From contig JAMCQZ010000009.1 of NCBI GenBank assembly GCA_023380305.1, forward strand, positions 1 to 38,964: 38,964 bases of DNA. Direction: 5' to 3'. The notes under the pieces are model-generated. The model saw only the letters and a list, made by a program, of their open reading frames with translations, was not told where the DNA came from and ran no database searches. This stretch comes from Patescibacteria group bacterium. GTDB lineage: Bacteria > Patescibacteriota > Minisyncoccia > UBA6257 > Colwellbacteraceae. The translations under genes were made by a program, and so were the position numbers. Below are positions 11,992-17,328 of this stretch, piece after piece. Numbering within the stretch: position 1 is the stretch's first letter; each line of letters begins with the position of its first letter.

Positions 11992-12774
11992 CTACAAAGC
12001 CGAAAACAATTCGTTTCGGCGGACAAAACTCAAAATCAGGCTTTTGAGCCACGGCTTTTGAAGCTGCGAAACATAACGACTTATCGCCTCGTGCTTCGCT
12101 TCTTCCACTTCGGGGGTCAAAGACAATCTGTTCCAGATATGGGGCTGACCGAGCAGGTTGATCGGAGGCAATAAATTCCTTTTCGGAGCGTAGCCGAGCG
12201 GCCGCGGAAAATCGTGATAATGAACGAGATATCCGAGAACCCGGCTCTGATAGCCCAATTCCGCCAGGCTGGATTTTACGGCTTTGCCCAAAATTTTGTG
12301 GTCGCGATGGCCGTCTTCGGGATCGGGCGTTACGATGATCGTCGGACGAAAGCTTTCGATAAGGGATCTGATTTGCGAAGGCAAGGACGAAGCGTAGTTT
12401 TGAAGCTTGCCGTCGGGATAATTCCAGAAGACGACATCGTTTTCCCCGACGCCCATGGTGGCAGCGGCTCGAAGCGTCTCCTCCGATCTAATCGCCTCGA
12501 TTCCGGTTCTGTTGCCGTTCGTCGCGATAACGATTTTAACTTCCGCAGCCTCGCGCTTCGCCATGATTATCAAAGCCCCGCTGCCCAAAACCTCATCGTC
12601 CTGGTGCGGCGCAAAGACCAGAACCCGATCGCTTGCTGTCGGCGCCTGGATTTCATCGAAAAAATTGACGATCGCGTCCGGCAGAGCGCCGATGTATTTG
12701 ACGTAAATCGAATATCCGATAAAAAGGATGATAATCGCCGCCGTGATAAAATATTTTTTATTCTTTTTAAACAT
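11992..12774 (-). CDS. PIG-L (LmbE-like) family deacetylase, membrane-anchored
   Basis: PIG-L proteins are zinc-dependent amidases that remove acetyl groups from GlcNAc-type substrates. The 260-residue product has a single N-terminal transmembrane segment (about residues 8-25) that would place the domain outside the membrane. The metal motif HQDDE is at residues 57-61 (the family pattern is HPDDE), and the second ligand block is DPEDGHRDHK near residue 150. The substrate is unknown; cell-surface glycan or glycolipid is a reasonable guess. A structured RNA ends 14 nt upstream of its ATG, so it may be under leader control. Confidence 0.88.
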   Translation of the reverse strand: MFKKNKKYFITAAIIILFIGYSIYVKYIGALPDAIVNFFDEIQAPTASDRVLVFAPHQDDEVLGSGALIIMAKREAAEVKIVIATNGNRTGIEAIRSEETLRAAATMGVGENDVVFWNYPDGKLQNYASSLPSQIRSLIESFRPTIIVTPDPEDGHRDHKILGKAVKSSLAELGYQSRVLGYLVHYHDFPRPLGYAPKRNLLPPINLLGQPHIWNRLSLTPEVEEAKHEAISRYVSQLQKPWLKSLILSFVRRNELFSAL

Positions 12775-12788
12775 CTTTGACTTACAAA

Positions 12789-12913
12789 AATCCCTCTCCT
12801 TTTGATTACCCGGCCTAAGCCAGAGTGGGAATCCTCAATCCGAGCCCGCAGGCTAAGATACTGTCGGTTTCCCCCAAAAAAATCTTTGATCCGGAATCAC
12901 AAGGAGAGGGATT
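12789..12913 (-). ncRNA. Structured RNA or 5' leader with 19-bp closing stem
   Basis: Arms 12789-12807 and 12895-12913 pair over 19 positions with one mismatch, enclosing 87 nt. On the minus strand an extended -10 promoter ends exactly 6 nt before the stem, so the RNA would begin at the stem base. Inside, GGGAA/UUCCC, CCGA/UCGG and a small AGCC-UGCG-GGCU hairpin nest in order, leaving a large internal loop. The 3' arm runs into a short T-run. It could be an independent RNA (the closing stem plus central bubble is somewhat 6S-like, though shorter) or the leader of the PIG-L gene. I do not recognise the SRP RNA, tmRNA or RNase P signatures. Confidence 0.55.
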
Positions 12914-12919
12914 AACATA

Positions 12920-12928
12920 ATTATAGCA
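12920..12928 (-). promoter_or_regulatory. Extended -10 promoter for the structured RNA
   Basis: TGCTATAAT on the minus strand is a perfect extended -10 element (TGnTATAAT). The -35 region is weak, as is usual for that class. The predicted start falls on the first base of the 19-bp stem. Confidence 0.72.
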
Positions 12929-12983: not shown

Positions 12984-13595
12984 TTATTCGAGTATTCCGT
13001 CCAAATTGACGTCGTATAATATTTCTTCGTTTACCAGGCGGTAATTTATCAGCTCTTCCGGCTTAAACCACAAGCTGACTTCGTCATTCGCCTCGGCCGG
13101 GCTGCCGGAAGAGTGGACGATGTTTCTGGTCGAACGGTTGTCTATATCAGCCACCTCGTAAGAATCGATGGTAAAATCTCCGCGGATGGTACCCACGTCA
13201 GAAGTCAAAGGCTCGGTGCCTCCGGTAATCTTCCTAACGATGGCCACGGCGTGCATGCCCTGCCAGATCATCGGCACCACCGGCCCCGAACTCAAATATT
13301 TTTTCAGTTTTCCCAAAGTGATGGCGTTTACGGCGAGCGGATCTTCCGAAGGAGGAGTCAACCCCTTGGCTTTATAGGCCTCGATGGTCTTCCGGCCGTT
13401 CCTCTCGCGCCAGGTCGGATCCAGGGTATAGTGCTTCTCGACGAACTCAGGCGTAGGCACGACCATCTTGATACCGATGAGCTTCAATCCCGCCCGTTCA
13501 TACCGCTTGATGACCTCGCCGATCAATCCCCTTTGCACGCCGTCGGGTTTGATAATGACGAGCGTCTGTTCTTTCTTGTTAGCCTGTTCCGCCAT
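12984..13595 (-). CDS. ndk: Nucleoside diphosphate kinase, enlarged form
   Basis: Ndk passes the gamma-phosphate between nucleoside triphosphates and diphosphates through a phosphohistidine. The 203-residue product begins TLVIIKPDGVQRGLIGEVI (residues 11-29), has the nucleotide-binding GPVVPMIWQG block and GTIRGDF, and the catalytic His at about residue 161 in RNIVHSSGS (usually NxxHGSDS). Standard Ndk is about 140-150 residues; the excess is an insertion of some 35-45 residues after the first helices (including TWRERNGRKTIEAYKAKGLT) plus a C-terminal tail WFKPEELINYRLVNEEILYD. The core is intact, so activity is likely. Confidence 0.93.
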   Translation of the reverse strand: MAEQANKKEQTLVIIKPDGVQRGLIGEVIKRYERAGLKLIGIKMVVPTPEFVEKHYTLDPTWRERNGRKTIEAYKAKGLTPPSEDPLAVNAITLGKLKKYLSSGPVVPMIWQGMHAVAIVRKITGGTEPLTSDVGTIRGDFTIDSYEVADIDNRSTRNIVHSSGSPAEANDEVSLWFKPEELINYRLVNEEILYDVNLDGILE

Positions 13596-15227: not shown

Positions 15228-15257
15228 AGTATATCACCGGATTTTCATAATTTTAAA
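15228..15257 (-). promoter_or_regulatory. Promoter for aspS inside the end of the comEC MBL gene
   Basis: TTTAAA, an 18-nt spacer and TATACT on the minus strand; the -10 box ends 7 nt before the aspS ATG, again a leaderless layout. The -35 lies within the upstream coding sequence. Confidence 0.55.
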
Positions 15258-16070
15258 CCCCTCTTCGCCGAAAACGGCCGTAAGAGTGCCCAAAAGGTCG
15301 GTGCGGTAAACCTTGGCGCCGGCCGCCTCGAGCCGGCGCTGGGCTTCGGCTCCGGGGTGGCCGTAAGAATTCTTTCCGACCTCGATGATGGCCGCCGCGG
15401 GCCTGACCGCCTCCAAAAACTCTCGAGTCGAAGAACGGTTTGATCCGTGATGTCCCACCTTCAACATCTCGGCGCGGATATCGTGTCCGGCCGCGATTTT
15501 TTCTTCCGCCAACGCCGAGATGTCGGCCGCAAACAAAGTTCTCCCGAAAGAAGTCTTCAGAATGATTACTAAAGAAGCGTCGTTCGTGTCTTCAAAGCTT
15601 TCTCCGGCTTCCGGAGACAGAATGTCCATTTCCGCATCCGCGAAATAAATCTTATCGTCTTCCCCCAGGCCGATCACCGGAATTTCTTTTTGATTGAGCT
15701 CCTCCAGGAAGGTTTTCAAGGCGCGGTCGTTTCTTTGATTTCGCGCATAGATAAAAGCTCCGACTTCGTAGCTTTTCAAGACTTCCCGCAAACCGCTTAG
15801 ATGGTCGGCGTTCGGATGCGTCAGTATCAGAAAATCGACATAGCGCCGCGCCGGCCCCAATATCCGGTCGAGTTCGCGAACAACCGACCTATCCGGCCCG
15901 CCGTCGAGGAGAAATCTCGCGCCTTTGACAGCTATAAGCTCGCTGTCTCCCTGCCCGACGTCCAAAAAATAGACACGATCGGAAAAACGGCCGGATCGCA
16001 AGGCGCGGATTTCCGAAAAAACAAGGATATTACATAAAACGAGCGCAAAGATTAATAACGGCTTCCGCAT
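15234..16070 (-). CDS. ComEC-type metallo-beta-lactamase domain protein (separate gene)
   Basis: In DNA-uptake proteins of the ComEC/Rec2 family, a metallo-beta-lactamase domain follows the membrane channel and is thought to degrade the non-transported strand. Here that domain is its own 278-residue protein. A hydrophobic N-terminal segment (about residues 4-20) would export or anchor it. The domain shows DVGQGDSELI, LDGG, and the metal motif LTHPNADHLSG, then KVGHHGSNRSST and ASLVIIL. It overlaps the membrane-part gene by 41 nt in another frame. Its stop is TGA. It may also have a role outside competence. Confidence 0.9.
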   Translation of the reverse strand: MRKPLLIFALVLCNILVFSEIRALRSGRFSDRVYFLDVGQGDSELIAVKGARFLLDGGPDRSVVRELDRILGPARRYVDFLILTHPNADHLSGLREVLKSYEVGAFIYARNQRNDRALKTFLEELNQKEIPVIGLGEDDKIYFADAEMDILSPEAGESFEDTNDASLVIILKTSFGRTLFAADISALAEEKIAAGHDIRAEMLKVGHHGSNRSSTREFLEAVRPAAAIIEVGKNSYGHPGAEAQRRLEAAGAKVYRTDLLGTLTAVFGEEGFKIMKIR

Positions 16071-17328
16071 AGTTTAATAATATTTGAAGACCCCACCCGA
16101 CGATGATAGCCAAAGGTTTTGAAACGATCGCGAGACCGGCCACGGCGAATCCTCCGAACATGATCAGTGGCGTAACAGCCAAGACAAAAATATTCGGAAC
16201 AACGGACAACGCGCTAAATCCGCCGGTTTTTACGATTAAAAGCGGCGCCACCATGGCCTGGGCCGATACGGTCTGAACGGCGTTGTCTTTCCAGCCTAAA
16301 AATCCCCTGTCCTCAATCCGCAACTTTCCCTTCAAAAAAGGGGCGAGATAAGCGATACCGAAGAAAGCGAGAAAGGACAACTGAAATCCAAGATCAAAAA
16401 CGAGGAGCCGGGGGTCGACCAGGACCATGGCAAGCCCGGCGAAGACAACCGGATTTTTGGCCGAATAAACGCGATCGTTGCGTCTGGCGATCAAAGACAG
16501 GAACGACATGATGGCAGCCCGCACGACCGAAGCGGCCGCGCCCGTCATCAAGACAAATCCCAAAATAAACAACGCCGAAAACCAAAAACTGCGACGCTTC
16601 AGCCCGACGGCGGCCAGAGACGTCTGGACCGCGGCAATGACGATCAACACGTTGTACCCCGACAGAGCGATGAGGTGGCTCGTGCCGGTTTTTTTCAAAT
16701 TATCCAAAAAGGTTTTGGAAAGAAGGCTGTCGTCTCCAAGCGTCATGGCGATCGCGAATCCGGCTTCGGAAAGCGGCAAGGTCTTCCGCAACCCGGATTC
16801 CAGAACGCTTTTAAACCCGTAAAGCGTCCGGCGCAAAGAAAATCCCCGGGTTTCGGCCACCAAGACGTTTTGAGGAAAAGAGACGCTGCGGCCCCGGGGC
16901 CCCTCCTCGATCCGGCCGGTTACCCGGAGCAAATCTCCGTAAGCGTATTCCGGATATATCCTGTTATAACTCACGATCTCTCCCCTCCATGGCGGTTGAA
17001 ATTTAAGAAGCAACACCTGCGTTTTCTCTTTTAATTCCGGTTCCGCGACTATCCTGGCCAGGAAAACAGCTTCTCCCGGACCCGGCATCTTGGATTCGGC
17101 AAGCGTTTCGCGGAAATGAAAATAGAAACAGCCCGCAAACATCAGCCAGACGCATACTGAAAGAACGCGCCATTTTCTTCCCTTCCGCGCCGTCGAAAAT
17201 AATAAAAAACCGCCGGAAAACGCGGCGGTCGCGGCGAGAGCCCAAACGCCAGAGAAGCCGGCGCCGGCCGCGAACACGCCCGCCAGGAAGAAAACCGAAG
17301 CAGAAAAAAATATCTCCGACGGCCGCAT
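16030..17328 (-). CDS. comEC: ComEC/Rec2 competence membrane protein (channel part)
   Basis: ComEC forms the inner-membrane channel for single-stranded DNA in natural transformation. The 432-residue product has N-terminal transmembrane helices, a soluble OB-like part (about residues 65-165, with YGDLLRVTGRIEEGPRG), and the Competence domain with the signature GTSHLIALSGYNVLIV near residues 220-235 and several more helices. It stops after the membrane domain; the C-terminal metallo-beta-lactamase domain is in the next, overlapping gene. The ATG starts 2 nt after the mnmA stop. I see both halves as intact, so a two-gene ComEC is more likely than a pseudogene. Confidence 0.9.
   Translation of the reverse strand: MRPSEIFFSASVFFLAGVFAAGAGFSGVWALAATAAFSGGFLLFSTARKGRKWRVLSVCVWLMFAGCFYFHFRETLAESKMPGPGEAVFLARIVAEPELKEKTQVLLLKFQPPWRGEIVSYNRIYPEYAYGDLLRVTGRIEEGPRGRSVSFPQNVLVAETRGFSLRRTLYGFKSVLESGLRKTLPLSEAGFAIAMTLGDDSLLSKTFLDNLKKTGTSHLIALSGYNVLIVIAAVQTSLAAVGLKRRSFWFSALFILGFVLMTGAAASVVRAAIMSFLSLIARRNDRVYSAKNPVVFAGLAMVLVDPRLLVFDLGFQLSFLAFFGIAYLAPFLKGKLRIEDRGFLGWKDNAVQTVSAQAMVAPLLIVKTGGFSALSVVPNIFVLAVTPLIMFGGFAVAGLAIVSKPLAIIVGWGLQILLNYAEAVINLCARFM

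Follow-up and report, generated by a model that had tools for sequence, protein, structure and literature searches.

The RNA locus and its predicted fold

In the window (the whole stretch of 38,964 nt that was analysed), the minus strand carries a putative 6S RNA gene at 12786-12913, with a predicted start at A12913 and a predicted end in a T-run, as delimited by the fold, by the match of a covariance model (R2, see below) and by covariation. Upstream of it, at 12920-12928 on the same strand, lies an extended -10 promoter element, TGCTATAAT, assigned from the sequence and from the upstream regions of homologs; A12913, the first base of the closing stem, is placed 7 nt past its hexamer. The 3' arm of the stem is followed by a TTTTT run (12790-12786, minus strand), and the downstream gene, identified as PIG-L by Pfam, begins with an ATG at 12774. 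Among 70 homologs, a perfect TATAAT was found directly upstream in 46, compared with 1.9% of random stretches, and the TGn of the extended -10 element in 43. Judged from these sequence features, the RNA, with a length of ~125-128 nt, is a stand-alone gene with its own conserved promoter, mostly present as a single copy. Four homologous loci (L012, L014, L018 and L047) have a separate hairpin, rich in G+C and accompanied by a T-run, directly after the RNA, while the window copy has just its own closing stem plus T5.

In the minimum free energy fold, 12913-12895 paired with 12807-12789 in 18 pairs with one mismatch, enclosing 87 nt, and the energy of the fold (-56.4) was lower than that of all 200 dinucleotide shuffles (-39.7 ± 4.0; z = -4.21). 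These results bore out an earlier note on this DNA, made from the sequence alone, in its placement of the extended -10 element so that transcription would start on the first stem base (A12913, with the coordinates confirmed), in its 19-bp stem with one mismatch around 87 nt, and in the short T-run that it saw 14 nt ahead of the PIG-L ATG. All parts of the RNA lie on the minus strand. The closing stem is formed by a 5' arm at 12895-12913, supported by the fold and by the covarying pairs of helices 1-3, and a 3' arm at 12789-12807, supported by sequence, fold and covariation. Further in, the 5' arm of the inner stem (GGGGGAAACC, 12866-12875) rests on the fold and on covariation of helices 5 and 6; its 3' arm (GGATTCCC, 12827-12834), which continues into ACTCTGG, rests on covariation and on the Rfam alignment, where the 6S consensus reads ACCCACCUgg. 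Between them, an apical hairpin with a four-base loop (12837-12860) corresponds to helix 7, whose 9 pairs all show two-sided changes across the family.

Conservation, covariation and taxonomic spread

A blastn search of 100 related genomes with the window RNA returned homologs in seven of them, all of which had, in RNA orientation, the promoter, a closing stem of altered sequence, CCGGAUCAA, GG, the apical hairpin and the 3' hairpin region. A first covariance model, built from five sequences, matched in 75 of the 101 genomes of the order set. The second model, R2, was built from 70 members and recognized the window copy at 12788-12914 (96.3 bits, E = 1.7e-23); it matched in 79 of the 101 order genomes and in 138 of 380 genomes across the phylum, in both cases almost always with one copy. 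Two genomes had two copies: one carries two different copies of the RNA, on contigs C2 (1525-1651, L074) and C17 (1700-1826, L077) of G007, and the other has copies at 6219-6346 of contig C1 and 2403-2531 of contig C16 of G154. They possibly parallel 6S-1 and 6S-2 of B. subtilis, or are mixed assemblies. Within the same order, none of the four listed genomes of family f8 (G033, G056, G074 and G090, two of them single-contig assemblies) had an R2 match, which suggests that the RNA was lost or has strongly diverged in one lineage.

In the 70-member alignment, 92.2% of pair cells held standard pairs, compared with 64.8% after shuffling. Changes on both sides were observed in 32 of 34 pairs, and the covariation score was 0.773, compared with 0.227 for shuffled alignments and 0.12 when the partner was slid by one column; these counts are somewhat inflated by the fitting of the alignment to the structure, hardly to the extent observed. 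Every helix covaried except the near-invariant GGG/CCC. Thus, the two signs of a conserved RNA that the earlier note had proposed to look for, homologs in relatives and covarying pairs, were both found, the first by blastn and, more broadly, by R2, and the second at considerable strength.

Scanning 85,462 species genomes for a strict sequence motif yielded 56 loci, and R2 matched at 54 of them. These 54 loci belonged to genomes labelled just "bacterium" or bearing Patescibacteria names (Colwellbacteria, Wolfebacteria, Liptonbacteria, Peribacteria, Peregrinibacteria, Magasanikbacteria, Uhrbacteria, Woesebacteria and others). The two loci outside Patescibacteria, one in Rokuibacteriota (L161) and one in Intestinimonas (L176), matched neither R2 nor 6S and were set aside as chance hits. 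The family of the window includes genomes labelled Candidatus Colwellbacteria, whose loci and scores coincide with those of G018, G022 and G024 of the same family, and the closest counterparts of the window's AspS and Ndk include the proteins of the genomes so labelled.

Relationship to 6S RNA

6S RNA is a small RNA that imitates an open promoter and thereby holds RNA polymerase. An Rfam search, also proposed by the earlier note, yielded no credible match for the window RNA: nothing in the window passed the gathering threshold, and relaxing it to E <= 10 added just three implausible weak matches, none of them to the 6S model RF00013. Bacterial small SRP RNA was discarded as a candidate, as the Rfam SRP models matched neither the window (E <= 10) nor the RNA in a panel of 20 further loci; in the same panel, RF00013 gave only three matches (29.7, 24.5 and 19.5 bits), all on this RNA family.

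RF00013 exceeded its cut-off in none of the 101 order-set genomes. It did match, at 26.5-28.7 bits (E from 1.4e-4 to 4.6e-4, per genome), in three genomes from the same family as the window, and the three places are homologs of the window RNA. Across the 380 phylum genomes, RF00013 gave 27 matches, four of them over the 46.4-bit cut-off (60.2, 56.3, 55.4 and 55.4 bits) and covering all 187 model positions. Twenty-four matches, among them the four that passed the cut-off, shared place and strand with an R2 match; the other three were in G119, G196 and G413, each devoid of R2 matches. Since RF00013 matches, including those over the cut-off, coincide with R2 loci, the RNA is best regarded as a diverged 6S RNA; for the window copy the link is transitive, because it matches R2 (96.3 bits) and not RF00013. 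With a probability of roughly 0.88, the best explanation of the data is a shortened, diverged RNA of the 6S (SsrS) family, with a likely role as a mimic of an open promoter that holds RNA polymerase. The small 6S-like RNA that was among the options of the earlier note is supported by these bridging matches over the cut-off, by anatomy and by gene context, and its option of an undescribed class falls away with the homology to 6S.

The anatomy of the RNA was compared with that of 6S RNA. A rod-like architecture (closing stem, central bubble, apical stem-loop) was found, backed by covariation, and the Rfam alignments placed the 6S elements AgCCgA, GGGag...caCCCACCUgg and GGuU on the corresponding elements of this RNA. 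The 5' strand of the central bubble (CCGGAUCAAAG..., 12876-12894, minus strand) was located by conserved columns and by its register with E. coli GCCGAU44 in the Rfam 6S alignments. At the base of the bubble, the AgCCgA of the model corresponds to AGCCGAU44 in E. coli and to UCCGAU or UCCGGAU in the family, so that by sequence register a CCGA-type template motif is present (CCGGAU in the window). As U44 is the product-RNA start in E. coli 6S, U12889 is the predicted start in the window RNA. The template site has U at the start in 58 of 70 members and the following A in 65 and 66 of 70. From the same register, a 13-nt product RNA, 5'-AUCCGGAAUCACA, is predicted at 12889-12901 on the plus strand; it would begin 5'-AUCCGGAAUCAC....

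With 6S/SsrS (RF00013; E. coli ssrS and B. subtilis bsrA, 6S-1) the RNA shares the closing stem, the CCGA-type 5'-bubble site, the GGGA...CCCACC inner stem, the 3'-bubble hairpin, the single gene and, as in B. subtilis, the aspS neighbour. It differs from them in its length (~125 nt vs ~180-200 nt, outside the usual 6S range of ~160-200 nt), in its apical arm (~48 nt vs ~73 model positions), in the extra G of CCGGAU in the window and in scoring below the Rfam cut-off throughout the 101 order-set genomes. The distal apical arm with the -35-like region, present in E. coli 6S, is missing or reduced. A ~160-nt 6S RNA from a 2024 study is likewise a shortened 6S in a small, condensed genome, and the window RNA is ~35 nt shorter still. 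The 78-nt core of B. subtilis 6S-1 (6S78), which lacks the -35-like arm, retains RNA polymerase binding, albeit roughly tenfold weaker, along with product-RNA templating and release (PMC8876501). Because this core works in vitro, a short 6S is workable and length does not define the class. The window RNA resembles 6S78 in its central bubble, its short arms and the lack of a full -35-like region, whereas 6S78 is a laboratory construct and the window RNA a natural one with a long closing stem.

A 6S-derived RNA could also bind RNA polymerase differently, for instance as core enzyme, or could by now make no product RNA. Such a case is Ms1 RNA of Actinobacteria (PMC9130861), which has a 6S-related fold, binds the RNA polymerase core enzyme and illustrates that 6S-like folds can switch partner; moreover, the reduced apical arm of the window RNA could weaken sigma contacts. 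Polymerase binding would be common to both RNAs, and the core enzyme as partner is what sets Ms1 apart. We consider this explanation unlikely, given the strong conservation of the 5'-bubble template site, its register with E. coli U44 and the primary-like sigma factor that the genome retains. That the RNA is a conserved structured RNA unrelated to 6S and similar by convergence, a reading favoured by the sub-cut-off Rfam scores of the window copy and of most order members and by a reciprocal test in which R2 gave no match to E. coli ssrS, is very improbable in view of the 24 coincident RF00013 matches and the complete model coverage of the four strongest.

Predicted switch, gene context and significance

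Our analysis supports homology to 6S well, together with a conserved structure, a conserved promoter and two competing pairings; that the RNA is transcribed, binds RNA polymerase, templates a product RNA and then releases the enzyme we infer from homology and anatomy. Most likely, the RNA acts as a mimic of an open promoter, engaging RNA polymerase with the primary sigma factor (the genome encodes a primary-like one) and dampening transcription. When nucleotides are plentiful, the polymerase would template the short product RNA from the 5' bubble, starting at U12889, and this synthesis would open the closing stem at its base; the opened stem would let the 3'-bubble hairpin UCUGGC/GCCGGG form fully, upon which the enzyme would be released. 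In E. coli 6S, unwinding of the corresponding stem makes way for a 3'-bubble hairpin of 9 bp, which in turn drives release (PMC8876501), and therefore a release switch of the same kind is likely in the window RNA, as judged by this comparison.

The hairpin in question, UCUGGC-UUAG-GCCGGG (12809-12824, minus strand), with up to six pairs, persists across the family, where 90.5% of its cells are paired, and its outer Gs can instead pair with the CC at the closing-stem base (92.6% of cells), a rival pairing also considered by refolding prediction; the outer pairs are too conserved to give a covariation signal. In thermodynamic predictions with the 13-nt product-RNA site held unpaired, the hairpin was favoured in 51 of 69 members, compared with 30 of 69 before, and the free RNA of the window copy already preferred it (0.83 to 0.88).

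Regarding gene context, 42 of the 70 loci had ndk and 39 had aspS upstream, each on the strand of the RNA, and one or both were upstream in 47 loci; the aspS count is a lower bound, as the flanks span at most ~2 kb. Downstream genes varied, with PIG-L in only two of the 70. A cis-acting leader or riboswitch controlling PIG-L, the riboswitch-type leader of the earlier note, would fit the position of the RNA directly upstream of PIG-L, 14 nt away with a short T-run between, but this gene context makes it very improbable, since PIG-L so rarely adjoins the RNA and the conserved neighbours lie upstream; besides, the RNA has its own conserved promoter and in some homologs is directly followed by a terminator hairpin of its own. 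In B. subtilis, aspS and yrvM are the two genes that flank 6S-1 (bsrA) (PMC11077062), and the aspS neighbour common to 6S-1 and to this RNA may be ancestral.

With the standard 6S model, which passed its cut-off in 0 of 101 genomes in the order and four of 380 in the phylum, 6S would look absent from Patescibacteria. The R2 matches (79 of 101 and 138 of 380, respectively) indicate that some of the bacteria with the smallest genomes keep a 6S-type global brake on transcription, if the role is as we propose. In the open-licence literature we found nothing relevant on 6S RNA in Patescibacteria or the candidate phyla radiation beyond passing mention, and an earlier report is possible. The RNA offers a natural minimal 6S for structural work, and R2 a better model for annotation. 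More tentatively, and with the odds somewhat against so composite a claim, a phylum-wide, naturally minimal 6S clade (~125 nt, with a reduced -35-like arm) might regulate RNA polymerase of Patescibacteria by a compact bubble-hairpin switch, and the aspS linkage might date to the common ancestor with 6S-1 of Firmicutes.

Two observations concern other genes on the minus strand of the window. Its Ndk (12984-13595) has 203 aa and two separate Pfam stretches, probably owing to an insertion relative to the usual Ndk. Farther away, two overlapping open reading frames (15234-16070 and 16030-17328) resemble, by eye and from their translations only, the beta-lactamase-fold and membrane halves of a split ComEC.
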